This document shows, one piece after another, positions 8,212 to 23,171 of a stretch of DNA of 23,943 bases. The notes under the pieces are model-generated. The model ran no database searches. It was given only the letters and a program-made list of their open reading frames with translations, and was not told where the DNA came from. Every line of letters starts with the position of its first letter. The stretch's first letter is position 1. A program made the position numbers and the translations under genes. The DNA is from a virus: positions 1-23,943 of the IMG/VR virus record IMGVR_UViG_3300037560_000144. One strand, written 5' to 3'.

Positions 8212-8404
8212 CAACTGGCTGTATCACGAGTGGGGACCTGACGGTAAGTGCGTTCGACGTTGCGGTGCTACTGTCTCATTCCACCACCGGGGAAACCTCC
8301 ACGTCGTGACATCGGACGACGCCCAGTCCCCCGCTGCAACGCGCGAGCCAATCCGCCTTGCTGGTCTTGCATCCCTACGCGGTTTACGCCACCACCGACG
8401 TTAG
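8192..8404 (+). CDS. small Cys-containing hypothetical protein, overlapping the convergent gene
   Basis: This is a 70-residue frame starting at an ATG with an excellent ribosome binding site (GGGGGAG, five bases upstream). The first 30 residues look like a real protein: MDIHCADNWLYHEW followed by a Cys pair, KCVRRCG. The second half (from about 8268) runs antisense to the C-terminal end of the 972-residue protein gene and has a less convincing composition. The gene may be an intact small protein or a 5' remnant whose end was replaced at the strand-switch junction. No function can be given. Confidence 0.5.
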   Translation: MDIHCADNWLYHEWGPDGKCVRRCGATVSFHHRGNLHVVTSDDAQSPAATREPIRLAGLASLRGLRHHRR

Positions 8405-11186
8405 CCGGGGGACGATTCTGCATCCGCATCTTCTGTAGCATGCCCCGCATGTTAGGAGCCACTCCCGGTCCACCTCTCGGTCCCGGTCCACCTGCCTCGG
8501 GAGGCATGCCACGTGGCACCGGAACTCCTCGCGGATCGAATCCACCACGACCACCTAGCCGTGCGCGAGGCGGAGGTGCGCCTCTCCACGGTGTGCGACC
8601 ACCACCACGACCACCGGGGAAGCCACCGGGACCGGGGAGACCACGCGGTGGGAAGCCACGACCACCACCACCGGGGAAGCCACCACCCGGCGGCATGCTC
8701 GGTGGCGTCGTTCGTATCGGTCCCCCTTTCCATGGCGGCATTCCTCCACCGGGACCAGGTTGGATTCGAGGCGGAGGTGCACCGCGCCACGGCATCTCCA
8801 CAGGGTTCGTCGTCGCACCGTATCCACCACCCTGCGGTGGCATCGAAATGCTCGGAGGTACGCCACCTGTAGGAGGCCGACGGAAGTTTGCCTGCGCAAG
8901 TCCACCTCCCTGATAACCGGCAGGCGTGTCGATGTAACCACCGTACGCCTGCTCCATTTTTTCCATCTCTTCATCAATTTTAGTGGTGTCTCCGTAATCC
9001 ATGATCCGCTTGTACCACGGGACATCTTCCTCAGCTTCAGGCGGAGGTGGAGGAGGCGGAGGAGCTTTGTGATGCTTCCGCTCCCATGACTTCCATGCAT
9101 TCGGCATCTTTCCTTTGTCGTAAGGGTTCGGACCCTCAGCATGTCCGGGGCGAGCTTCACCACCTTCGGCGTAGTAATTCACGTGACCTCCTCCTGCGTA
9201 CCCTCCTTGGGGCACCGCTAATAATAACGCGACACGTTCTTTGTGCGCGCGTAGTTGCTCTGAATATTCAGTGTCTCTTCCTGCTCGTCGTTCCGCTCCG
9301 CCAAATGGTCCCGGCGGAGGAGTACCATCCGGAGGTGGTTCACCTTCTATCGGTGGCGTACCCGGCGGAATTATTCTTGGATCCGGAGGCTGACCACCTC
9401 CACCACCCCCACCACGTCGGCCTCCACCACCGCGACGTCCACCTCGACGTCCACCACGGGGACCTTGAGAAACCGTTGTCGGTGTCCCACCGTAGTACGG
9501 ATCGTAACCCTCCGTTACCTGACCCGTGTAATCTTCACCTAAGATTGTCTGCTGCGGTGGCATGTACATCAGAGTTTTCATTTCATCTTTGGTGTACTTA
9601 CCTTCCGCACCACCTTGGGGCAGGAACGATGGTTGCCATGCGCCTGACTGCATAAGTCTTGCAAACCGGATCGCACCCTTGACTCCCTTCCCCATTTTCT
9701 TACTGAGATCAGCATACGAGAGCGGTTCGTCGCCTAAGTTAAAATAATCTTGAGCCCGAAGAGCCCAGTCGTCGAGTTTTTTGTCCTTGCCTGTGCTACC
9801 ACCGTGAGCAAAGTTCAGACCAGGTGCGTCCATTCGCTGACGCAAATCTTCCATCGGTGCGAGTCCACCTTCCCACATGCCTTCGGCTGCAGCTCTGTCG
9901 GCTTCGCTCATTACGCCCGTGGGCATTTGACTCGGTGGCATGAAGATGTCTTCGCCACGGTCGTTGACACCGATGCGGTTCAGCTCGTCTGCCGTTGGCA
10001 TGCGACCTAAGTCATCGGGACTGCCTTCGAGACCGGCTGCAATCTGCTCCATCTGCTGACGCTCAAAGTCAGACATCTGACCTGTCATACCTTGCTGTGA
10101 TTCTTGCGCTTGTTTCTGCAGTGCCTTGCTCCACTCCTCACGCAGCGCTCTCACTTTATCTTGCTGCACTCCGTAGTCCCGGATGGAATACTGCTTACCA
10201 AATTTTGTCGAGCCGATATCGTCCATGAGTTTTTCAGCTTCGAGCAGCTGCGGACGAAGCATTTGTACTAGCTCTTCTCCAGGCATCTCATCTAAGCGTG
10301 CTCTGGCTTGGGCTTCCCGACTTGCTTCGACCTCCCGATAGAAATCTGTCTTGAGTTTATCCGCAGCCGCCCGTGTCTCCGGTGTCGCCGGAGGCTGGCT
10401 CATGATGTCTTCGAGTTGACTCTCCAACTTGGCAGTGACGGATCCACCTTCGGCGTACCTGCTCTCTGCAAACCCACCTGAATACATGCCGCGATCCTTT
10501 TTATCGACGAACTCATTCGCTACTGCACGTGATGGACCTCCGCCTCCCGGCTTCTTCCACCCGTGCGCAGTTGCACGCATCAATCTTGCTTGCGCCTCAC
10601 TGGCGTAGCCGCCCTTCGCCAACGTAGGCACGTTCTGTACCCTAAAACTTGGCTGACGTGTCAGGTGAATTTCTTCCAGTTCGAGTGGGTCCACAACACC
10701 CGGAACTAATTTGTCAGCCTCAGCAGCACCGGCTGTGACTGCAGCTGTCGCAGCTGCACCCGTGCCCGACAGGCCCGCAGCAAAAGTCGCTCCACTGGGG
10801 ATGGCTGCAGTGACGGCAGATCCTACTCCGGTTGCTGCACCACCAGCTGCCGTGGCTCCTGCTCCAGCCGCAGCACCAGCAGGCGCAGCAAGTGCACCGA
10901 GTGCTCCGCCCGCGTAGATTGATGCAACCGTCGCAGCTATCTGGTGCATCGTCGCGCCAGCTTTGATGTTGATGCCTTCATCGAGAGCTTGTTGGTAATC
11001 GTACGACGTCGCACCCCCTAACTGATTGACGAGTGCCCTGTCGTTACGACCGAGAATCTCATTCCACATCTTCGTACTGAGCGGATCAACACCAAGGACC
11101 AGTCGCTTAGGATCTTTCCAAATCCCCTTCGCCAGTGTCTTGAAGTGTGACTTCTCAAATTTTAATACGTCGCTTAGGAAACCCAT
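8268..11186 (-). CDS. large Gly/Ala-rich putative virion protein with long disordered RGG/PGG tail
   Basis: This 972-residue protein is the last gene of the late operon. The N-terminus (MGFLSDVLKFEKSH and on) is followed at about 80-160 by a long hydrophobic Ala/Gly stretch, like membrane-active segments of ejection proteins. The middle is helical and charged. Scattered Gly-Gly motifs (GGYASEAQ, YAEGGSV, FAHGGS, YYAEGGE, GGYIDTP) recur and also occur in two other virion genes here. Residues about 574-600 form an RGG block, about 708-716 are a poly-proline run, and about 757-972 are almost entirely PGG, RGG and GGFPGG repeats. The start has GGGGAGG nine bases upstream and overlaps the terminase stop by one base. 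A role as an internal or ejected virion protein is inferred from composition and neighbours. Confidence 0.75.
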   Translation of the reverse strand: MGFLSDVLKFEKSHFKTLAKGIWKDPKRLVLGVDPLSTKMWNEILGRNDRALVNQLGGATSYDYQQALDEGINIKAGATMHQIAATVASIYAGGALGALAAPAGAAAGAGATAAGGAATGVGSAVTAAIPSGATFAAGLSGTGAAATAAVTAGAAEADKLVPGVVDPLELEEIHLTRQPSFRVQNVPTLAKGGYASEAQARLMRATAHGWKKPGGGGPSRAVANEFVDKKDRGMYSGGFAESRYAEGGSVTAKLESQLEDIMSQPPATPETRAAADKLKTDFYREVEASREAQARARLDEMPGEELVQMLRPQLLEAEKLMDDIGSTKFGKQYSIRDYGVQQDKVRALREEWSKALQKQAQESQQGMTGQMSDFERQQMEQIAAGLEGSPDDLGRMPTADELNRIGVNDRGEDIFMPPSQMPTGVMSEADRAAAEGMWEGGLAPMEDLRQRMDAPGLNFAHGGSTGKDKKLDDWALRAQDYFNLGDEPLSYADLSKKMGKGVKGAIRFARLMQSGAWQPSFLPQGGAEGKYTKDEMKTLMYMPPQQTILGEDYTGQVTEGYDPYYGGTPTTVSQGPRGGRRGGRRGGGGRRGGGGGGGQPPDPRIIPPGTPPIEGEPPPDGTPPPGPFGGAERRAGRDTEYSEQLRAHKERVALLLAVPQGGYAGGGHVNYYAEGGEARPGHAEGPNPYDKGKMPNAWKSWERKHHKAPPPPPPPPEAEEDVPWYKRIMDYGDTTKIDEEMEKMEQAYGGYIDTPAGYQGGGLAQANFRRPPTGGVPPSISMPPQGGGYGATTNPVEMPWRGAPPPRIQPGPGGGMPPWKGGPIRTTPPSMPPGGGFPGGGGRGFPPRGLPGPGGFPGGRGGGRTPWRGAPPPRARLGGRGGFDPRGVPVPRGMPPEAGGPGPRGGPGVAPNMRGMLQKMRMQNRPPANVGGGVNRVGMQDQQGGLARALQRGTGRRPMSRRGGFPGGGMRQ
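8271..8915 (-). repeat. low-complexity PGG/RGG-coding repeat tract
   Basis: Degenerate tandem units, read on the - strand as GGTGGTGG, CCGGTGG and CGTGG-type blocks, encode Pro-Gly-Gly, Arg-Gly-Gly and GGFPGG tripeptide-like repeats at the C-terminus of the 972-residue protein. A shorter block of the same kind lies at about 9388-9465. The repeats are imperfect at base level, which suggests selection on amino acid composition rather than recent slippage alone. Confidence 0.75.
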
Positions 11187-11761
11187 TACTTATCTACCTC
11201 CCCGGTACGCCCGTCGATGACAGCGTTATCAGGTTTCGGTTTGATCAATGCCAAAATACTCGAGACCACTTCGAGTTTCGTCTCGTCACGCAGACCGATG
11301 GGTGCACCTTCCTTGCCGCTGTGCTCAGTCTCTTTACGATCAGCCCAGTGCTCGCGCTGTCGGTTGGTCAGCCACAGTTTGATTGCTTGCACGTCAGGTT
11401 TGTAATGCTTGATAGTGTCGGCACGGATGATCTCTCCGTCCCACTGAAAAATCTTTTCTTCGTCGTGCGTGTAACCGACGGCAGTCTGGTACAACGCACC
11501 AAGGACAGCAGCATCCGCATCGGTGTAGCCACTTTCGAGTGCATCTTTGAACAGCGGGTACTGCGCCTTCCACAGACCCAGTTGACGTTTGCTGATGTCG
11601 AAGATCTCGGACAGCTGGTCTTCATCGATGCCACGCATTGCAATCGCACGGACCTGGTCGAGGTGATCGGGCAGGAACACACGCGAACCTTCCGCAAGCA
11701 GGTGACCTGCACGGTTACGGGCGTATCTCTTAGCCGGTAGTTTGGTGCGGACTGCAGGCAT
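11186..11761 (-). CDS. terminase small subunit
   Basis: This 191-residue protein is the probable DNA-recognition subunit of the packaging motor. Residues about 36-75 form a helix-turn-helix (DEDQLSEIFDISKRQLGLW). The following segment, GYTHDEEKIF then KHYKPDVQAIKLWLTNRQ (97-135), matches a conserved pattern of one TerS group in which a PDxxA helix is followed by WLxNR. The N-terminus is basic. It sits between two large putative virion protein genes, with one-base TAATG overlaps on both sides. No large subunit lies beside it. AGGAG is found about ten bases before the ATG. The family call is fairly sure; the cos or pac site it would bind is not visible. Confidence 0.82.
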   Translation of the reverse strand: MPAVRTKLPAKRYARNRAGHLLAEGSRVFLPDHLDQVRAIAMRGIDEDQLSEIFDISKRQLGLWKAQYPLFKDALESGYTDADAAVLGALYQTAVGYTHDEEKIFQWDGEIIRADTIKHYKPDVQAIKLWLTNRQREHWADRKETEHSGKEGAPIGLRDETKLEVVSSILALIKPKPDNAVIDGRTGEVDK

Positions 11762-13749
11762 TACGGTTGCTGCTCCTGTTCCATTTGCTGAAGTTTTAGA
11801 GCCGCCTCTTCTGCGCCCCCACTACCGGGATCCAACCCAGGTCCGACGAGGAGCGAACCCTGACCTATTCCGGTTCCAAATGCGCCACCTCCTGACTCCT
11901 CTCCGGGTGTGCCTCCCAGCCATCCGATGGGATTTATTCTCTCCGTGACACCGCTAGCTATCTGTCGCAGTGCACTCATGCCCGATGCCGCTTGCCCTGC
12001 AACCATCCCCGGCTCCATGGTCAGGCTCAGTTCAGGCATGTCCACATCTCCCTGCAGCACCGCGTTGCCCGTCGCCAGTATTAGCGGACGCAGTTGCGCC
12101 ATGATCTCTTTCACAAGTTCAGGTTTGCCCTTAGCATGTGCGAGACGCAAGAAAAGATTACGCACTCCAGCACTTTGTACTGCCTGCCCCATCATGCCCG
12201 TCATCATGCCAGCCATTGCTCCGCCCACGACATCGAGGAGGTAGAACATCCCGCCTCCCGCCATGGCTGCAGTCATGCCCGCACCCTTACCGATGTTCGC
12301 TGCATCCTCGGTGATGCGAATGAACTCTCGCGCACCCTTAACCATTGCAAGCTGCTCAGGATCCGGGAACATGTTATTCAACGCTTTGCGATGGTCATCG
12401 AGGTACTTCACAAACGTACCGGGATTTGCAATGTTGGTGGCTTGTCCCGGTCTCCAGTTCGCACGTCGCAGACCTTCCGCAAGGAATCGTTGCTGCGCCA
12501 TTTTCTGTCCTGCCGGAGTGAGCTTGTCGAACAGTTCTTTGATGCGCCTGCCGTTGTTGCCATTGAAGACAGCGTCCACCAGCTGCTCATCGATTTTACC
12601 GGCTTTGATCTTATTCGCGAGGACGTCATCCACAACCTCTCCGGCTTCCTTCAGCCAAGCACGTTTGACCATCGCTTCGGAAGGTCTGCCATCGAGGGTG
12701 TTGAAGCCAAAGAAACGCCAGTCTTTCATGCGTTCCTCAAAAGTCTGCGCAATCTCCTGACCCAGCTCACCGTCCATGTCAACACCCAGGTCGTCTGCAA
12801 TCGATTTGAGTGTGTCGGTACGCTCGGCCTGCTGCTTGAGACGTTGCTTTGCAGTGCCGAAGAACGGAATACGATCCGTGACCTTAAGGAAGATCCGTTG
12901 CGCAGGCGCGAGGTGCTCCTGTAATGCATCGGACGTCATAACCCTGTAGCCTCGTGCTGTAGCAAACTTCAGTGCCGACACAACGGTCTCAGGAATATGA
13001 GTTAACTCTGCTACCTTGCCAAATAATTCCTTGCCCTTCATTGCCAGTCCCAGAGCTGGCTTCGCTAACAGTTCCGGAACAAGACCGAACGCTGTTGCCA
13101 GTGCAACATCTTCAGGATCGTACTCACCTCCCGCTGCCTCTTGACCAAGTTGTGCAGCGTGTTCGGTTACGCCTGAGGTAACCATCGCTGTGGCTGCTCG
13201 CGGCATCAACGCTTTAGGAATGGCAGTGAGCTTTGAAGCAGGTAAGAACTGACCGACCAGTCCGATAGTTTGCAGCACATCTTGCCCACTGATCCCCGGC
13301 TTGTTGATGACAGCTTCGTACCCGGTGAGTTTGTTTCGTGCAATCGGAACGTACTCCGGTGGGTCCTCTTCGTCCCAGTCATCCTCCAACATCTTAGGAT
13401 GAGGTGCGAGGCGCACATCGATGACCTCCGGGAATCGATTCTGCAATTGCATGCCCAGCTCGTGTGGATCCATGGTCGTCATGTTGAGCCACGCCTGACT
13501 GAACTCGACACCCAATTTACGTGACTGAGTTGCTGCGAATCCCATGATTGACGGATCAGCTTCACCTGAAGTTTCGAAGCCTTCCATCATGCGAGAGCTG
13601 TGCGTCATCTCCGGCAGCTCTTCGATCATTTCAGGAGTGACGCTCGGATCAATAGGAAACCGCTGTCCGGTTGCCGCAGGTTGGAGGTGCCAGTCCCCGG
13701 TATCGACAGCTTCTCCAAATGCTGCGTCGTCTTCCCACCACTCAGCCAT
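11761..13749 (-). CDS. putative internal virion/ejection protein, 662 aa
   Basis: This large protein is not matched to a named family with confidence. The N-terminal 150 residues are acidic and polar. Alternating helical segments follow, some hydrophobic (DVLQTIGLVGQFLP; the GLVPELLAKPALGLAMKG region). Residues about 495-535 form a Gly/Ala/Met-rich hydrophobic stretch (AAMAGGGMFYLLDVV, then MAGMMTGMMG) that could enter a membrane. The C-terminus is Gly-rich and disordered. Position among other large late genes of a short-tailed phage suggests a protein carried in the head and ejected with DNA. GGGGAG lies about nine bases before the ATG, and the gene overlaps both neighbours by one base. Role by inference only. 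Confidence 0.7.
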   Translation of the reverse strand: MAEWWEDDAAFGEAVDTGDWHLQPAATGQRFPIDPSVTPEMIEELPEMTHSSRMMEGFETSGEADPSIMGFAATQSRKLGVEFSQAWLNMTTMDPHELGMQLQNRFPEVIDVRLAPHPKMLEDDWDEEDPPEYVPIARNKLTGYEAVINKPGISGQDVLQTIGLVGQFLPASKLTAIPKALMPRAATAMVTSGVTEHAAQLGQEAAGGEYDPEDVALATAFGLVPELLAKPALGLAMKGKELFGKVAELTHIPETVVSALKFATARGYRVMTSDALQEHLAPAQRIFLKVTDRIPFFGTAKQRLKQQAERTDTLKSIADDLGVDMDGELGQEIAQTFEERMKDWRFFGFNTLDGRPSEAMVKRAWLKEAGEVVDDVLANKIKAGKIDEQLVDAVFNGNNGRRIKELFDKLTPAGQKMAQQRFLAEGLRRANWRPGQATNIANPGTFVKYLDDHRKALNNMFPDPEQLAMVKGAREFIRITEDAANIGKGAGMTAAMAGGGMFYLLDVVGGAMAGMMTGMMGQAVQSAGVRNLFLRLAHAKGKPELVKEIMAQLRPLILATGNAVLQGDVDMPELSLTMEPGMVAGQAASGMSALRQIASGVTERINPIGWLGGTPGEESGGGAFGTGIGQGSLLVGPGLDPGSGGAEEAALKLQQMEQEQQP

Positions 13750-15062
13750 TACTGTCTCCCCTTATACTGGTAAATTTTACCGTCAGGTCGTCGCACCCAA
13801 TCATTGACGTTAGGCTCGGGCACTCCCGGTCCTACAACGATAGGATTTTGCATGCTTGAACCTGGTGCAGCCGACTTAGCTGCTTCTCTTTTTTGCAATG
13901 CTCCCTCGGGGGTGTCTGCTGTGATACCCATCGCTTCTAAATCGAGGTTGAGTCCATACTCACGTGCTGCTCTAACACCGCGACGGTATCGCTGACGTTG
14001 TATGCGCAAGCCCTCTTCAATGAGTGCCATGTTGACACCAAGCGGTTTCGACAATCCTGTTTCCAAAGCTTCCATGTACTTGCGTTCGCCCTCGGAAATC
14101 TGACCGGGGAAATTCTTCAAACCTAACAGCACTGCTTGACCCAATTCGTTCCGTAGAATACCGAGAGTGGTAACTTCTTTCGTGTTGACACCGAACCATT
14201 CAGAGGCACGCTGCAGCAAATCTACCCAGCCGCCAGTACCGTAGCCAGCCCGTTCCACTTCCTTCATCAGGCCAATTACTGTTTCGTATTTGTGGATGAC
14301 CGGGTAAGCCTCGCGGCCTGCCATGATGTCATTGTTGATGCGATCCGCTTTGGCTTCTTCCAGTCCCAGTTGGAACTGCAGTTCACTTCTCCGTTGCAGA
14401 TCGTAGGGAGAAGATGAGTACGGAATGCTACCGTCTTCGCCCGGTGTGTCCACGTACTGCGTTGTCATCATGCCCTGCTCACCGTTGGGACCGATGACAT
14501 CGGGATCCCATATCTGCTGTACCCGTGCAAACCTATTGGGATTTTCAGGGTGTTCCATAGAGTACGCGGTGCCGACAGGCCTGCGTTGAGCGTACTCTCC
14601 GAGTCGGCCTTGCTTCTCGATCTGTGCACGACGTAGCTCGTCGTCCAGATAGTCCCGTCGGATCTGTTCTTCCTGAGCTGCGTACGCTTGCTCCTCAGCT
14701 ATCCGTTCGCCTTCGTGCCCACGTTGAGCTTCGATTTCTCCACGCATTGCGCCCGCAGCCATGCCGACGTTTTCACCGAAGCCACCCGTCTGAGTTGGTG
14801 ACAACATAGCCTGCCCGAACGCCAACCACTTGGCCTGTTGGTCGCGATGCTGCTGCTGGGCACGTCGTTGTTTTATCGCGTCCTGACCTGCACGCAGACG
14901 AGCGAGTGCATCGTCACGATTCTTGATGATCATCTGTTGCAGATTCAACCCAGGTTCTGGATCAGTACTGCGCTTGACGATCTGATCAACTGTAAGTGCA
15001 GGTGCCGGAGGACCGTAAGCCTCTCCGCCTTCCTGAAATGCTTGTTCCACTTCTGATCTCAT
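13749..15062 (-). CDS. putative internal virion protein, 437 aa
   Basis: The start is placed at the ATG at 15062, with AGGA six bases upstream; an in-frame TTG at 15068 is less likely. Residues about 45-160 are a charged, Gln/Arg/Glu-rich helical region with coiled-coil character. A second helical domain (about 255-365) contains KNFPGQISEGERKYMEAL and a following Arg-rich helix. This block resembles a segment I associate with phage tail or ejection proteins. The C-terminus ends in a small beta unit, NDWVRRPDGKIYQYKG. It begins two bases after the end of the -1 frame extension of the upstream gene and ends overlapping the next start by one base. Function is inferred from context. Confidence 0.7.
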   Translation of the reverse strand: MRSEVEQAFQEGGEAYGPPAPALTVDQIVKRSTDPEPGLNLQQMIIKNRDDALARLRAGQDAIKQRRAQQQHRDQQAKWLAFGQAMLSPTQTGGFGENVGMAAGAMRGEIEAQRGHEGERIAEEQAYAAQEEQIRRDYLDDELRRAQIEKQGRLGEYAQRRPVGTAYSMEHPENPNRFARVQQIWDPDVIGPNGEQGMMTTQYVDTPGEDGSIPYSSSPYDLQRRSELQFQLGLEEAKADRINNDIMAGREAYPVIHKYETVIGLMKEVERAGYGTGGWVDLLQRASEWFGVNTKEVTTLGILRNELGQAVLLGLKNFPGQISEGERKYMEALETGLSKPLGVNMALIEEGLRIQRQRYRRGVRAAREYGLNLDLEAMGITADTPEGALQKREAAKSAAPGSSMQNPIVVGPGVPEPNVNDWVRRPDGKIYQYKGRQ

Positions 15063-15064
15063 GA

Positions 15065-15268
15065 TCAATCCTGTTTGTGTTGCAGTTCGAGGTGGTGTCC
15101 TCCTGCTGCGCCAACACCTCTTCCAAAATCAGGGTACAACTGTCGCGCCCAATTACTGAGCGCTCCTACTGCACGTCGTCCGAAGTTCCAGATGCCTGAA
15201 CCTGCGGCACGTGCCAGTCCACCGATGCCGTACTCGTCTACCTCATAGCCGCCTCCACCAGCGCTCCT
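15065..15268 (-). CDS. -1 frame extension of the 15238-16362 gene (putative programmed frameshift)
   Basis: This 68-codon open segment (67 residues plus TGA) has no usable start of its own: in its frame there is no ATG or GTG after the upstream stop, and the only TTG lies deep inside. It is the -1 frame relative to the upstream gene and joins it at the heptamer CCCAAAA (15268-15274). The predicted peptide begins RSAGGGGYEVDEYGIGG and continues with WNFGRRAVGALSNWARQ. It carries the same Gly-Gly motif style as the protein it would extend. It ends two bases before the next ATG, as expected in this tightly packed operon. Joined to the first 365 residues, it gives a 432-residue product. A sequencing indel is the main alternative. 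Confidence 0.6.
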   Translation of the reverse strand, partial: RSAGGGGYEVDEYGIGGLARAAGSGIWNFGRRAVGALSNWARQLYPDFGRGVGAAGGHHLELQHKQD

Positions 15269-16362
15269 TTTGGGTACGCGTACCCACCCTCCGCGTAGTC
15301 AGTCACGTCCTCGTAGTCGGCTTCAATGTAGCCGCCTTCGGCTGTTCCCGGTGGTGGTTGCAGTCCACGGTACACACCGTAAGCACCAGCAAGTTGCGAC
15401 AGCGGTGACGGCTGGTAAACGCTCGCCGGTCCCACATCGGTACGCGTCGTCGTCCTTCCTTGCGGAGGCAATCCACGAATGATCTCGGACATCCAGCTGG
15501 CTCGGTCGAACGGCAACTGACGTTGCTCCAAGAAGTCGGCGTACGCGAGATCGAGACTTGCCTGATCCATTCCACGTGTCTGCTGACCGATTGCTTCCAT
15601 CGATGCAGCATCCGTGAGGCCCATCCGCTGAGCTGCTTCGCCCATACGTCCAAGTCCTTCGGCTCCGGCGTACATCTGTTGTGCACCTGCTTCTTCGAGG
15701 GCACCAGTAATGCGAGCCAACTCGGCCTGCCGTTGCTGTCCTGCACCGAAGATGTCTGCGCCCTGACCGTAGGCTCCGGACAGTGCTTCGAGACGTTGCG
15801 CTTCGAGTCCCTCAGAGATTTCCTGCATGCCCTGCATACCGATGTCTTCCATCGAGCCGGTGCCGCCACGTGATCCATACTGACCGGCACCTCCAAAGGT
15901 GCGCTGCAGTGACGGCAGGAATTTATTTTCCAGCGTACGTTGGGCGAGCTGCTCTTGTCGGTCGAGCACGCCACCGATGTAAGGATTCATGTACGACTCG
16001 GCGACGCCGGGATCAGTCCACTGTTGTGAGCCCGCTTGGAGGAAGGGGTCCGCCGAACGTCTGATGTTGGCCGCACGACTCAGGCCTCCGCCATAGCCCG
16101 CAGCTCCCGCTTCGAGGTACGGCTGATACGAGCCGATGTTCGCTTCGGTCATGCCGAACGCAGCCTGTTGCTCGGGAGAGAAGCCAGCGATCCTGGGACC
16201 ACCGTACGGAATGTAGGGCTCAGCTGCAGCAGCGTTCGCTCGCGCGATCAGTCCCTGCGTGTAATCCGACATCCACTTCGGGATGTTTTCCACGGTCTGC
16301 CCGTAGGTTGTGACCGATTGTGGAGGCTTTCCCTCAAATAAGAAGTCTAAGTTAGCGGGCAT
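15238..16362 (-). CDS. putative virion protein, 374 aa (0-frame product)
   Basis: The start (ATG at 16362) directly follows the stop of the upstream gene and has GGGGAG about seven bases before it. The protein opens with a linker, then NIPKWMSDYTQGLIARANA and YIPYGGPRIAGFSPEQQAAF, a beginning I associate with environmental phage virion proteins. The middle is helical and rich in Ala, Gln and Gly (about 120-310). The end carries repeated Gly-Gly motifs (TAEGGYIEADYED, DYAEGGYAYPK). The 0 frame stops at TAG (15238-15240), nine codons after the slippery heptamer. I believe a fraction of ribosomes shift to the -1 frame. Function unknown; neighbours suggest an internal or tail-associated virion component. 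Confidence 0.75.
   Translation of the reverse strand: MPANLDFLFEGKPPQSVTTYGQTVENIPKWMSDYTQGLIARANAAAAEPYIPYGGPRIAGFSPEQQAAFGMTEANIGSYQPYLEAGAAGYGGGLSRAANIRRSADPFLQAGSQQWTDPGVAESYMNPYIGGVLDRQEQLAQRTLENKFLPSLQRTFGGAGQYGSRGGTGSMEDIGMQGMQEISEGLEAQRLEALSGAYGQGADIFGAGQQRQAELARITGALEEAGAQQMYAGAEGLGRMGEAAQRMGLTDAASMEAIGQQTRGMDQASLDLAYADFLEQRQLPFDRASWMSEIIRGLPPQGRTTTRTDVGPASVYQPSPLSQLAGAYGVYRGLQPPPGTAEGGYIEADYEDVTDYAEGGYAYPKGALVEAAMR
15268..15285 (-). promoter_or_regulatory. putative -1 frameshift site with overlapping palindrome
   Basis: On the - strand the 0-frame codons read TAC CCA AAA GGA, giving the canonical X XXY YYZ heptamer C CCA AAA (15268-15274). Its CCC is the end of the perfect 14-base palindrome GGGTACGCGTACCC (15272-15285), able to form a 5-base-pair stem with a CGCG loop. 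A Shine-Dalgarno-like GGAGGG lies about 12 bases upstream of the heptamer, a spacing similar to known bacterial -1 stimulators. No strong downstream hairpin was found by eye. Confidence 0.55.
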
Positions 16363-18414
16363 TTACATTCTCCCCGATTCGGTCATCGCTCTGCGAAGTT
16401 TTGCCATGCCACCTCGCGCCATATACTGGTGAGGCTGCTTCGCTTTGTGACTGAAGCCGCCCTTCATCAGGTTCTTCGCCTTGTGTTGGCGGAGGTTCGT
16501 ACGCATCTCATCCAACCGCTTCGCTCCCGCGTCACCGGATCCGTCACCCAAGAGTGCGACCGATTCTGCGTCTATGACGTACTCACCGTCGCTCAGTCGC
16601 GCCGGAATGTCGTCGGACCTACCTGTGCCCGGTCCCTTAACATAACGCCCTGCGGCTGCTACAGACGGGCTGGCACGCGGCACGTCAGCGTTCTGAGCCC
16701 AGTAATCGAACTCGCCTCCACGTTGGTAGCCGCCCATGGCTGCTCCCGGCATGCCTTGACCCAGCTCGGGTGCGGGTGGCATCCACGTTCCCGTGTTGGG
16801 ATCTTTCATGTAGCCAGCCGCTCGCAGCCGTCCACCATTACCCCGGACCATCTGGGCTGGGATAGGCTGACCCTGCGACATCATCTGAGCTAGTTGATCC
16901 TGCGCTCCCAGTCCTCCTGTCGGATCTCCCGGTACAGCGGGCGTGCCCGTCTCTCCGGCGAACGGTTCAGGCGTGACGAAGAGTCGCTCGCCAGTATGCG
17001 GAGCCCCTTGCTGACCGTAGGTGTAGTAAGCGCTCGGGTCTCCGGGACCAATCCATTCTCGCTCGCTGGTGTATTGTGGCAGAGATTCCATCATCCACTC
17101 GGGCATCGCTGGAGCCTGACCTTCTTCGTAGCCACCACCAGTTAGAGCACCCAGTCCAGTCAGCATTGGCAGGTACTTCATCAGGTCGGTCCCACCTGCC
17201 GCCGGAGCTGCTGGGGGTGCCGCAGCTGCTGCGGGAGTTGCTGCGGGTCCACCTGCAGGATCACCAAACACAGTTAGCTCATCCGGCCCAGCAGGGATAG
17301 GACTCATGCCACCTGCTTCAGCCAAGCCGCCCGCTGCAGGATCGAGGAGCGGATCTGGGGGAGCTGCGGCGGCAGGTGACATCGAACCCGGTTCAGTTGG
17401 TCGCACTGCCATGATGCCACCGGCACCCGGATCTTCGAGGTTGAAAATGTCCTGTCCCTTCTCAACGAGACCTTCCATGGTCGGCTTCATCATCTGAGCC
17501 ATTGCACCCTGCATGGCACCCGTTGCGAAGTCACCACCGGTCAACTCGGAACCTGCACCACTGGCGAGCGCTGAACCGAGAAGCGCTGAAGTACTGTCGG
17601 ACAAGTTGGGTGCAATATCCTTGAGTGCGCCACCCGCTAAGTCACCCAGACCTCCGCTAATGGCACCGGAGATCGCACCGGTTGCAAAGTCGCCACCTCC
17701 AGCTGCGGACATGCCGCCACGCAGCAGTGCGTTGCCGACTACACTACCCGCTGTACCCGCACCGGCACCTATCGCTTTGCCGATCCACGCGCCCAGTCCG
17801 GGAGCGAAAATGCTCAGTGCAATTGGAGCAACGATCTGGAAGATCTCGGAACTAAAGACTTTTTTCACTGCCTTCTTCACCTTCTTCCAGATCTTCGACA
17901 GGAAACCGTACTCGGGCATGCCGGTGTTAGGATTGACATCAGCCTTACCCCACATGCCTTCCATAACCTCCATCTCCTCCGGCGTCATGTGCACCAGCAT
18001 GGAGTCGCCGCCACGTCCACCGCGACGTGTCGTCTCAGCAGCTTTTGCAAGACCACCTTCGGCCTTGTCCACGTAGCCACCGATCTCGTACAGGCGCACC
18101 TTCTTGGTGTCCTCTGTCTTGACACCGGCTTTCTTCATCAGCTCGGTTGCAGCGAACGAGTACAACAGCTCGGAACCACCGGGCATGGACTCGATCTCTT
18201 GGGCAGCTTCGACGATCTCAGGGTCACCCCCTTTCTCCTGCAGCATGGCAGCAAGACCTGGTTGAGCTTGGATGCCCGCGAAACCTTCCCGCTCTTTCGC
18301 AGTCGGCATCGGTCTGCCTTTAAGTGCGCCAGGTGTGTACGGACCTCCGGGAGGACCCGAAGCTGTGATCCGTTTTGGTGTGCCGCCGCGCTTTGGTGCT
18401 GGTAAATCTGCCAT
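16363..18414 (-). CDS. large virion protein with hydrophobic Gly/Ala segment and DGEYVID motif
   Basis: This 683-residue protein starts with a Pro/Gly-rich region. An early Gly-Gly motif block (YEIGGYVDKAEGGLAKAAE) follows at about 108-126, then a basic amphipathic helix (about 170-185, FLSKIWKKVKKAVKKVF) and a long hydrophobic Gly/Ala stretch (about 186-300) suited to membrane insertion. The middle is Pro/Ala/Gly-rich and likely disordered. Near residue 610 is GTGRSDDIPARLSDGEYVID, a motif I recall as widespread in environmental phage virion proteins. The C-terminus has further Gly-Gly motifs (MKGGFSH, MARGGMAKL). It lies four bases after a small gene and abuts the next. An ejected internal protein or tape-measure-like role is likely by inference. 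Confidence 0.75.
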   Translation of the reverse strand: MADLPAPKRGGTPKRITASGPPGGPYTPGALKGRPMPTAKEREGFAGIQAQPGLAAMLQEKGGDPEIVEAAQEIESMPGGSELLYSFAATELMKKAGVKTEDTKKVRLYEIGGYVDKAEGGLAKAAETTRRGGRGGDSMLVHMTPEEMEVMEGMWGKADVNPNTGMPEYGFLSKIWKKVKKAVKKVFSSEIFQIVAPIALSIFAPGLGAWIGKAIGAGAGTAGSVVGNALLRGGMSAAGGGDFATGAISGAISGGLGDLAGGALKDIAPNLSDSTSALLGSALASGAGSELTGGDFATGAMQGAMAQMMKPTMEGLVEKGQDIFNLEDPGAGGIMAVRPTEPGSMSPAAAAPPDPLLDPAAGGLAEAGGMSPIPAGPDELTVFGDPAGGPAATPAAAAAPPAAPAAGGTDLMKYLPMLTGLGALTGGGYEEGQAPAMPEWMMESLPQYTSEREWIGPGDPSAYYTYGQQGAPHTGERLFVTPEPFAGETGTPAVPGDPTGGLGAQDQLAQMMSQGQPIPAQMVRGNGGRLRAAGYMKDPNTGTWMPPAPELGQGMPGAAMGGYQRGGEFDYWAQNADVPRASPSVAAAGRYVKGPGTGRSDDIPARLSDGEYVIDAESVALLGDGSGDAGAKRLDEMRTNLRQHKAKNLMKGGFSHKAKQPHQYMARGGMAKLRRAMTESGRM

Positions 18415-20253: not shown

Positions 20254-22527
20254 TCATGATATGTTGTCGTTCTCCGCAAGTTCAAAGAAGGAAGGCTCTC
20301 GGATAGTAGTGGCGGCACCACTGACTGAAGCCTGTGAAAACAGAATCTCTAGATTACCGACGAGCGTATCGTGGGACTGGAAAGAGAACTCCCAAATCAA
20401 ACACGATAGCTGTCCATTCGTCATGGTGGTGATATCAATTTCAGTTTCAAAATCTGTTCCCACATCACTATCAAACACACCAGCAGCATCTTGCGCTTGC
20501 CACATAAACTGTCCGATTTCCTCTGGTGTTTGGCTATAGCTGGCGACAACCGTAATGTCCCCACCGTTCTGGTCATACCAGATAACGGCCCGACCTTTCC
20601 AGCGTCGTGCAGGGGGAACGTGAAAGTTTGACCAGTTTGCAATGCTAGTTGGGGTGGCATCACTCGTACGTGATTGGTCAGCAAGGGTAGCTCTACGCTG
20701 CAGCCCATCAAGCCTATAGTCATTGCCAGCGTCATCCCTAAACATCATCGTATTCGGATTCAAGCCGGTCACATGGGGACCATCGCTATACAGTGCACCA
20801 AACCCTCCAAGCTGCGAAGGAGCTATTGCCGTCTCGGCTAGGTAGATAACCCCAGACAGGAATCGCCAATCCTCATCAGTCTGGAAGTCGGTGATCACGC
20901 CTCCGCTGGACGTGAGAAAGCAGGTCCCTCCTATGACTGCTAGAGTGACTACATCAGCTCCGCTGGTGAGTTCGACACGCCCAATGCCGAGTATGCCACC
21001 CGCACTAAGAGTGGCTAAGGTCCCAGCATCAGCCCATTCACCCGCACCATCACCTCGGAGCATTCGACCAGCCGCTCCACTCGCAGCAACAATTCCTCCG
21101 GATATCGTAATTGTCTTGGTCGAACCAACTCCACTTGCCACGACACCCGCACCGACAAAGTCGAGCGTGTCTGCGACTGTTGCTAACGGGACACCTTCGT
21201 CTTCGATGGTAATCCCAGGAAAGCCCAGTGCAAGGATGTCAGTGATCGTTGCTTTGCGATTGACGTTCGCGTTATCAATATCCTCGAAGGCTAAGAAGTC
21301 ACCGACTGCCGGTGCAGCTGACACGATGCTGGTGAGATCGAAGTCGAACGTCCGGGGAGACGATGACAAATCGCCGCCTCCAGCCATGCCGTCGCCAGCC
21401 ACAAGACTAAACGTGGTAGCAACACCTCCCAGGTTTGCAAGTGCTGTTGCAGCATCCGTCGCACCGGTACCACCCTGACCGATGGTGATCGGGAACCCGA
21501 TGCTGGTGGAGCTGCTCGCGTTGATCACGTCAGTGCCATCGCAGTAAACGATTAAACTCTGACCCTGAGTAACGAATATCCCCGCACCGGCAGCGGTGTC
21601 GATCTCCAGCGTGAACGCATTTGTCGTCTGGTTATCCACCCAATACTGCTGCGTCGTGTTAGGTACGACGATGCGTCGGTTACCAGTCAATGCACCCGTG
21701 AAACGATACGCAATCCTGTTGAGGTTCGCACCGGACAGAACGAAGTCACCTGAACCTGGTATCGGAATCGACACGAAGTCGAACGCGATAGTTGAACCGG
21801 AGCTAAGTCCAACGGTGAAGAAGTCTGTGCCATCAGTAAAGATGAAACACGAGTCCTGCGGATCGAGATTGATGCTCGCACCACTGTCGATCTGTCCGGA
21901 CGGAGGCAAGACATTAAGCGTGCCGCTGCCTCCGTTGTGCAGCATGAAGAACCAGTCATTGCCGACTACTCCCGGCGACGGCAAGTTACATGTACCTGCA
22001 CCTGCGATATAGACCAAGCACTTCGCTCGATCACCATCGACAGCGGTGAAAGGTGTCGCTGCTTCAATGTCGGAGTCGATCTTCTGGTTGAGCAGTGCGC
22101 TAATTGCTTTGAGGCCTGCGCCTGCCAGTCCAGAAGCAGATGCCGGAGTGGCTGCATTGCCACCCAACTGGAACGTGGTCCATATACCTGCTTGCGTGGA
22201 GTTGTCCGTAAGTACGACAACCCACTGCTCGCCTGACAGCACCTGCTGGATCGTGCCGCCTGTGTTGTCACGCACGGTAAATGAATTGGCACCTCGGTTG
22301 TTGAAGGTAGCTTTGTTACCCGTGCTCGTGTTTCGTGCATCGGGCATGTCAACGTTGAGCGACGGTGCAGTAGTATCGACGTCCATGACGTCTGCAACGA
22401 CGCTGTCGCCCGTGATCTGTTGTTCAGTCGGCCACTGCAGCGTGACATCCACAGCCGTAGTTATCATTAGATAACTCAACTGCGATGGGAAAATTAAATT
22501 TCCACCAAAGACATCGGTGTAAGACAT
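20254..22527 (-). CDS. tail fibre / receptor-binding protein
   Basis: This 757-residue protein is almost all short beta strands with Gly, Thr, Ser and Asn, typical of trimeric tail fibres. Residues 350-367 read GQGGTGATDAATALANLG, a hallmark segment of many phage fibres. Before it are three related beta domains at about 58-121, 168-240 and 275-338. Each has a pattern of NxTTNxFTL-like strands, a G-x-x-(W/D) turn, and a DGT or TDNS turn near the end, suggesting duplication. The C-terminal part (about 600-757) is probably the receptor-contacting head. GGGAGG lies nine bases before the ATG, and the start overlaps the adaptor stop by one base. It is the main candidate for host-range determination. 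Confidence 0.85.
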   Translation of the reverse strand: MSYTDVFGGNLIFPSQLSYLMITTAVDVTLQWPTEQQITGDSVVADVMDVDTTAPSLNVDMPDARNTSTGNKATFNNRGANSFTVRDNTGGTIQQVLSGEQWVVVLTDNSTQAGIWTTFQLGGNAATPASASGLAGAGLKAISALLNQKIDSDIEAATPFTAVDGDRAKCLVYIAGAGTCNLPSPGVVGNDWFFMLHNGGSGTLNVLPPSGQIDSGASINLDPQDSCFIFTDGTDFFTVGLSSGSTIAFDFVSIPIPGSGDFVLSGANLNRIAYRFTGALTGNRRIVVPNTTQQYWVDNQTTNAFTLEIDTAAGAGIFVTQGQSLIVYCDGTDVINASSSTSIGFPITIGQGGTGATDAATALANLGGVATTFSLVAGDGMAGGGDLSSSPRTFDFDLTSIVSAAPAVGDFLAFEDIDNANVNRKATITDILALGFPGITIEDEGVPLATVADTLDFVGAGVVASGVGSTKTITISGGIVAASGAAGRMLRGDGAGEWADAGTLATLSAGGILGIGRVELTSGADVVTLAVIGGTCFLTSSGGVITDFQTDEDWRFLSGVIYLAETAIAPSQLGGFGALYSDGPHVTGLNPNTMMFRDDAGNDYRLDGLQRRATLADQSRTSDATPTSIANWSNFHVPPARRWKGRAVIWYDQNGGDITVVASYSQTPEEIGQFMWQAQDAAGVFDSDVGTDFETEIDITTMTNGQLSCLIWEFSFQSHDTLVGNLEILFSQASVSGAATTIREPSFFELAENDNIS

Positions 22528-23171
22528 CAGACAGCCTCCCTCGTAACGTTCCTATCAATGATGCGCTTGACGTCCTGGCCTTCAAGAATCGCAACATCCT
22601 TTTCGTAAATGCCTTGCCATACCGGAATACGTTCGTCGTTCTTTAAAAATGGAGTCGCCTGCAGGAGCGCACCATGAAGCAAAGAGTTCGGGGCAAAGTC
22701 CGTCGTCCAGTTCGTTTGATTGGTGGCATCCAGAAGTGCAGGCAACTCCCAGTAGTTGACCTCGAATGGATAAGCAAAATCTGCCGACGGTGCGAACAAC
22801 CAATTGAAGTAATCGTAGTCAGCGTAAAACTTCGGCTGTTCAGTGAGATCTTCATCCGGCCAATAACGTCGGGCGTACTCATACGAACGAGCGAACAGCT
22901 GAGTTCTCACCTGCGTCGTTCCCACACCTATGTTGATCGAGATCGTGTCGCGCCAGCGGTTAGGCTTTGGAATAACTGACTGTCCGACACCTAGCGTGTC
23001 GGTCACTACGGCTACAAACCCCAGGATTTTCAATCGGTTCGCCAGCTCCCGCTCTGCAAGGTTAATCAAGCTCGGGAGCTGGTCGAACACAGTAGGATCC
23101 ACAGCCGTGCCTCGCTCCAGATACGCACGGAGATCACTTTGGAGCGAGTCAAATGTCATCGAGACAGCCAT
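22527..23171 (-). CDS. SU10-type head-to-tail adaptor protein
   Basis: This 214-residue protein resembles the adaptor family described for phage SU10-like podoviruses, which links portal to tail. The N-terminus MTFDSLQSDLRAYLERG, then DQLPSLINLAERELANRLK, is characteristic. Beta strands with RWRDTISINIG, the Tyr/Trp-rich middle (YWPDEDL, KFYADYDYFNWLFAP) and the C-terminal helical region (LLHGALLQATPFLKND) also fit. AGGAG lies about six bases before the ATG. It is followed directly by the tail fibre and nozzle genes, as in a connector and tail module. The portal gene would be expected further right, beyond the window. The assignment is from recognised sequence pattern, not from a search. Confidence 0.8.
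   Translation of the reverse strand: MAVSMTFDSLQSDLRAYLERGTAVDPTVFDQLPSLINLAERELANRLKILGFVAVVTDTLGVGQSVIPKPNRWRDTISINIGVGTTQVRTQLFARSYEYARRYWPDEDLTEQPKFYADYDYFNWLFAPSADFAYPFEVNYWELPALLDATNQTNWTTDFAPNSLLHGALLQATPFLKNDERIPVWQGIYEKDVAILEGQDVKRIIDRNVTREAV

Follow-up and report, generated by a model that had tools for sequence, protein, structure and literature searches.

We uncovered a late gene in a phage contig that appears to use programmed -1 ribosomal frameshifting to set the ratio between a long and a short form of a probable DNA-ejection protein, and whose relatives have swapped the frame that holds the tail of the long form at least four times. We put the probability of this reading at about 0.85. 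The contig is a 23,943-base IMG/VR record analyzed over its whole length (hereinafter the window), whose late genes are read on the minus strand. Comparison with homologues, in which the heptamer, the open -1 frame and the selection on it are all conserved, lends support to an earlier note that had proposed a programmed -1 frameshift at this site.

A slippery site and a start-less extension in the window

The stretch between positions 15063 and 15237 (175 nt) is the sole sizeable gap between the late minus-strand genes of the window. The earlier note had described in it a frame without a start, open for 67 residues and lying -1 to the upstream gene, with a C CCA AAA heptamer nine codons ahead of the 0-frame stop, and this description holds base for base (Table 1). 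The 3′ end of the upstream ORF reads TAC CCA AAA GGA GCG CTG GTG GAG GCG GCT ATG AGG TAG, such that nine sense codons separate the heptamer from the TAG. Past the heptamer, the -1 frame runs through its 67 open codons to a TGA at 15067-15065, 2 nt ahead of the next ATG (15062-15060). The frames likewise bear out the earlier expectation of products of 374 and about 432 residues, the former from the 0 frame and the latter predicted after a -1 slip, with the extension ending 2 nt before the next start.

Table 1. Features of the frameshift locus in the window
Feature	Position	Strand	Remarks
0-frame ORF, 374 aa, short product	15238-16362	-	Probably an internal virion (DNA-ejection) protein; matches in relatives are to phrog_4287 'DNA ejection protein'
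Slippery heptamer C CCA AAA	15274-15268	-	Read directly; in-frame in 10/10 C-type members including the window
0-frame TAG, end of short product	15238-15240	-	Read from the ORF
-1-frame C-terminal extension, 67 codons and TGA (RSAGGGGYEVDEYGIGGLARAAGSGIWNFGRRAVGALSNWARQLYPDFGRGVGAAGGHHLELQHKQD)	15065-15268	-	Homologous to the fused 0-frame C terminus in relatives
SD-like GGAGGG, predicted -1 stimulator	15292-15287	-	12 nt upstream of the heptamer; identical and at constant spacing in 10/10 C CCA AAA members
28-nt conserved element GCGGAGGGTGGGTAYGYGTMCCCAAAAG (SD-like motif, spacer and heptamer)	15267-15294	-	Most synonymously conserved run of the gene
Palindrome GGGTACGCGTACCC, judged incidental	15285-15272	-	Varies among members with the same heptamer
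Next virion gene	13749-15062	-	SD (AGGA in AAACAGGAT) inside the last codons of the extension

Our proposal is that most ribosomes would read TAC CCA AAA GGA on to the TAG and release the 374-aa form, while a fraction, aided by pairing of the GGAGGG 12 nt upstream with 16S rRNA, would slip back one base on C CCA AAA and go on to make the form of about 432 aa. The latter, with its helical, Gly-Gly-rich tail, would presumably account for a minority of the copies in the particle. A change of one base close to this site would, in relatives, bring the tail into the 0 frame and, the signal being kept, slipping would there yield the short form.

Two configurations among the relatives

Searching IMG/VR with the window protein returned 16 loci and profile scans added more; in all, about 30 distinct extension-bearing relatives were recovered, and a scan of a bacterial genome collection found no encoded relative. 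Cultured relatives are distant, namely the Caulobacter phages RW, RLK, KcrB and GB2A at 35% and Planktothrix/Synechococcus phages at 27%. In every one of the 14 genes with an early stop, the window counted, an extension of 46-81 aa lies exactly in the -1 frame behind an in-frame canonical heptamer: C CCA AAA in the window, L029 and L030; G GGA AAA in L032, L034, L037 and L053; and G GGA AAG in L045, L047-L051 and L074. In the fused relatives the homologous extension is part of the 0 frame itself. Among these, C CCA AAA is retained in L018, L019, L022-L025 and L028, and G GGA AAA in L033, L035, L039-L041 and L056 (L040, L041 and L056 being near-duplicates); a -1 slip at these heptamers is predicted to run into a stop after 3-8 residues. 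Only L038, L042, L043 and L044 (L042 and L043 again being near-duplicates) are fused and devoid of a canonical heptamer, and hence the two forms are not universal in the family. More distant members (L052, L124, L054, L055, RW gp065 and others) have the short form only, with the next gene following directly. The earlier note had reckoned that loss of the heptamer and a -1 frame full of stops in homologues would tell against its reading, and had asked if some relatives carry a fused frame; the homologues keep both the heptamer and the open -1 frame, and many do carry the fusion.

Elsewhere in these genes, in-frame heptamers of the form X XXY YYZ occur at 13 of 12,032 codons, while the overlaps that hold one in all 14 early-stop genes mostly span 8-34 codons (118 in L047); as the sequences are related, the number of independent heptamers is nearer to the three heptamer families than to 14. 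The length of the open -1 frame was dropped as evidence on its own, long open -1 runs being common in these genes.

A tree built from the N-terminal ~320 residues requires at least four changes between the fused and frameshifted states and three changes of heptamer type, and close sisters differ in state (L035 and L039 fused versus L034 and L037 split). L053, which is the sister of L030 by the N-terminal 320 residues, displays another C-terminal module and another heptamer, suggesting an exchange of the 3′ end by recombination.

The predicted slip signal

Across the ten C-type members (seven fused, three split), the run GCG GAG GGT GGG TAY GYG TMC CCA AAA G has the highest synonymous conservation in the gene: it accounts for the two best of 184 windows compared, with a codon identity of 0.94 against a gene mean of 0.62. 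The codons GCG GAG GGT GGG .. CCA AAA are invariant in all ten, a single codon is used in six of the seven amino-acid-invariant columns (hypergeometric P 2.8e-4), and the conservation ends one base past the heptamer. A degenerate DNA pattern of this element retrieved 14 of 2.9 million viral contigs, all within this gene family. The GGAGGG that had been noted about 12 bases upstream of the heptamer is present at a spacing of 12 nt, which falls within the 9-14 nt range of SD-like -1 stimulators (PMC5009743). Reading the signal in this way assumes suitable tRNAs and a suitable anti-SD in the host; ordinary SD sequences stand ahead of the starts of many window genes. The palindrome that the earlier note had also pointed out does exist, but several C-type relatives read GCGTCCCC in its place, and we rejected it as a part of the signal.

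The other heptamer families point to a different stimulator. In the G GGA AAA members, whether fused or split, and in four of the seven with G GGA AAG, a potential 12-16-bp stem lies 5-6 nt downstream of the heptamer. In these stems about 98% of the cells are paired, as against 31-58% when the structure is slid; the slid controls give better support than covariation, yet they favor a structure derived from the same sequences. There is one compensatory change in each group, with four distinct sequences per group, and the shuffle control for covariation is not decisive, its score being reached by 82-135 of 500 shuffles. In a 45-nt window, the shuffled-energy z ranges from -2.5 to -4.6 in eight G GGA AAA members and from -0.9 to -2.6 in four G GGA AAG members. 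In the window itself, no downstream stem exceeds the shuffles (z 0.1 to 1.3), nor does the C-type signal in general have one above chance. Of the features of bacterial-type -1 sites, an in-frame heptamer within the overlap, purifying selection on the -1 product and a candidate stimulator are all found here.

What is selected

Since relatives whose tail lies in the 0 frame have not lost the slip signal, what is conserved seems to be the pair of products, with the frames exchanged, and selection appears to maintain a ratio of the two forms rather than a particular frame. The broader model would be a two-form ejection protein in which the signal and the ratio are selected, the long form is free to pass from the 0 to the -1 frame and back (with at least four swaps) and the stimulators, upstream SD-like or downstream stem, are interchangeable; this we would back at slightly better than even odds.

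The main rival, which we consider unlikely, grants the -1 slip to the window's clade, ascribes the heptamers of the fused genes to coding or ancestry and sees in the early-stop genes repeated accidental losses of frame that were rescued by slipping, in place of a conserved system with two products. The mixture of in-frame, -1 and +1 expression seen for the Ig-like domains of phages has indeed been attributed to chance, in a model of 'indifference' (PMC5009743). Moreover, four fused members lack the heptamer, and in those that have it the -1 stop is not significantly close behind it, given their codons (P 0.03-0.28 each); hence, the case for functional slipping in fused members rests on the conservation of the heptamer, the SD-like motif and the stem. 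It is these that speak against the rival, for neither the codon-level conservation of the 28-nt element in the fused C-type members nor the strong, correctly spaced stem in the fused G GGA AAA members would be expected if no slipping took place. Sister genes that have exchanged product roles but kept the signal make the choice between a selected ratio and the rescue of accidental frame loss testable: under the ratio model, comparable long:short ratios would be expected from fused and split genes alike. If that model holds, the family would constitute a natural experiment, with frameshift efficiency comparable between sisters in which the slip makes the long form and those in which it makes the short one.

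A second alternative, to which we give little credence, holds that the main purpose of the slip is translational coupling, its rate setting the expression of the downstream gene through termination nearby, with the extension peptide being secondary. The stop of the long product lies within about 15 nt of the next start in every member (mostly -1 to +4), and in most members the SD of the next gene sits inside the last codons of the extension. However, nearly all late genes abut, so the stop position is not special; the downstream gene has its own SD; and the extension is under purifying selection at the amino-acid level. In each of the four groups compared, the dN/dS of the extension comes to about 0.07-0.42 (a few saturated pairs giving no usable ratio), similar to that of the upstream gene, and it is 0.12-0.19 for the extension of the window. 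Judging from these ratios, the extension is evolving as a protein in the -1 frame. Coupling may nonetheless arise as a by-product.

It is very improbable that a small gene of its own, with its own start codon, accounts for the extension, or that the extension is reached by internal initiation at the GGAGGG. In eight of the ten C-type members a GGAGG does occur 6 nt ahead of an ATG (GGAGGGTGGGTATGCG), but that ATG opens the +1 frame, not that of the extension, its peptides are unconserved, and it is replaced by ACG in the window and L029. Further, neither ATG nor GTG occurs in the window's -1 frame, whose lone TTG is 43 codons in, and starts are not conserved among the members, leaving no usable start in frame; we therefore rejected this option. 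Transcriptional slippage was also rejected: it requires homopolymers longer than A3-A4, and these are the longest here. Least probable of all, sequencing or assembly error (the earlier note had named an extra or missing base near 15268) or a recently broken gene, to which the single base separating fused from split versions might point, is ruled out since the -1 state recurs in independent contigs at 86-91% identity (L029 at 91%; L030 and L031, which stem from two datasets) and across the three heptamer families, with the heptamer always present, and purifying selection on the extension persists after the split.

Probable function and genomic context

The window and L018 proteins have no match in Pfam or PHROGs, and homologues match phrog_4287, 'DNA ejection protein' (RW gp065 at 1.6e-9, L055 at 8.8e-10 and L124 at 1.2e-4). 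In MW202675 the homologue makes up the N-terminal portion of a protein annotated 'internal virion protein D' that also has S74 and SLT transglycosylase domains; the whole, at MW202675.1 L207:2992-6546, is a single 1185-aa protein uniting the ejection-family homologue with a Peptidase_S74 chaperone and an SLT transglycosylase domain. The gene occupies an ejection-type late position, near the tail adaptor and other ejection or transglycosylase genes, and its neighbors include an SU10-type adaptor (22527-23171) and a DNA-transfer protein (11761-13749); with these, the late gene order is podovirus-like, and no major tail protein was found in the window. The weak PHROG matches in relatives, taken together with synteny, make it likely that the product is a DNA-ejection (internal virion) protein. 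An AlphaFold model of the fused L018 protein, of low confidence (mean pLDDT 66), consists almost wholly of long helices, with the tail poorly predicted. PDB sequence and fold searches gave nothing significant, and a BFVD fold search returned only unnamed or multi-domain phage proteins. The fold matches include proteins named for an intramolecular chaperone domain.

Relationship to known frameshifting systems

Programmed frameshifting is familiar in phage capsid, tail and tail-chaperone genes, and the C-terminal extension of a virion protein by this means is already known. In T7 gene 10A/10B, T3 gene 10, Lactobacillus phage A2, the Listeria phages A118, A500 and PSA, and proteins with Ig-like domains, a slip at the 3′ end likewise adds a C-terminal domain to a fraction of a virion protein. 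The targets there are major capsid or tail proteins, whereas the window gene, which has no capsid, tail or Ig match and whose relative L018 has a helical model, codes for a probable DNA-ejection protein with an extension that is not Ig-like. In-frame and frameshifted versions are both known across Ig-like-domain phages (PMC5009743); unlike in the T7 10A/10B-type systems, the slip signal persists in the fused relatives here, with the short form as the predicted frameshift product. In this they parallel the E. coli dnaX gene (tau/gamma), wherein a short product arises by slipping from a long 0-frame ORF. dnaX is not homologous, however, and combines an upstream SD-like stimulator with a downstream stem, whereas in the window's family these two are found in separate lineages and sister genes have the frames reversed.

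In the lambda G/GT tail-assembly chaperones, too, ribosomes slip into the -1 frame at a heptamer close to the 3′ end of a late gene, and G GGA AAG is listed for the g-t gene of the archaeal virus HCTV-5 (PMC5009743). Such chaperones are absent from the virion and belong to long-tailed phages, whereas the window gene has an ejection-protein position beside an SU10-type adaptor and, in the window, does not lie between a major tail protein and a tape measure. For the Alteromonas virus vB_AspP-H4/4, a putative -1 slip in genes 39/40 was proposed to yield an internal virion protein (PMC5658483); there the genes for an endolysin and the internal virion protein overlap, and the proposal is of a putative slippery sequence only, without comparative support (PMC5658483). 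It is the sole mention of frameshifting in DNA-ejection or internal virion proteins that we found in the open-access literature, most subscription papers lying outside this coverage. The family of phrog_4287 and Caulobacter phage RW gp065 shares a homologous body and a conserved gene order with that of the window; RW gp065, like its counterparts in those cultured relatives where the gene is separate, stops at the short form and lacks the extension, the following gene lying within about 10 nt. What is new here is the probable ejection-protein target, the interchangeable candidate stimulators and the kept signal with product roles predicted to be swapped.

Additional observations

For about half of the group, the final ~45-80 residues of the protein escape gene callers. 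The codons for the conserved C-terminal 'KQD' of the extension (15065-15076 in the window, and in relatives), AAACAGGAY, include the AGGA that is the SD of the next gene, and 'KQD' may be conserved on account of this SD instead of the peptide. That next gene (13749-15062 on the minus strand in the window; L018-L056) varies from about 415 to 643 aa among close relatives, which suggests module exchange beside the extension. The window also has a 972-aa ORF (8268-11186, minus strand), situated between the terminase small subunit gene and the early region, that has no match in Pfam, PHROGs or cultured phages. Finally, A/R-x-G-G-[YLFM] motifs (AEGGY, ARGGM, GGL) recur near the ends of several late proteins encoded at 15238-18414 on the minus strand.
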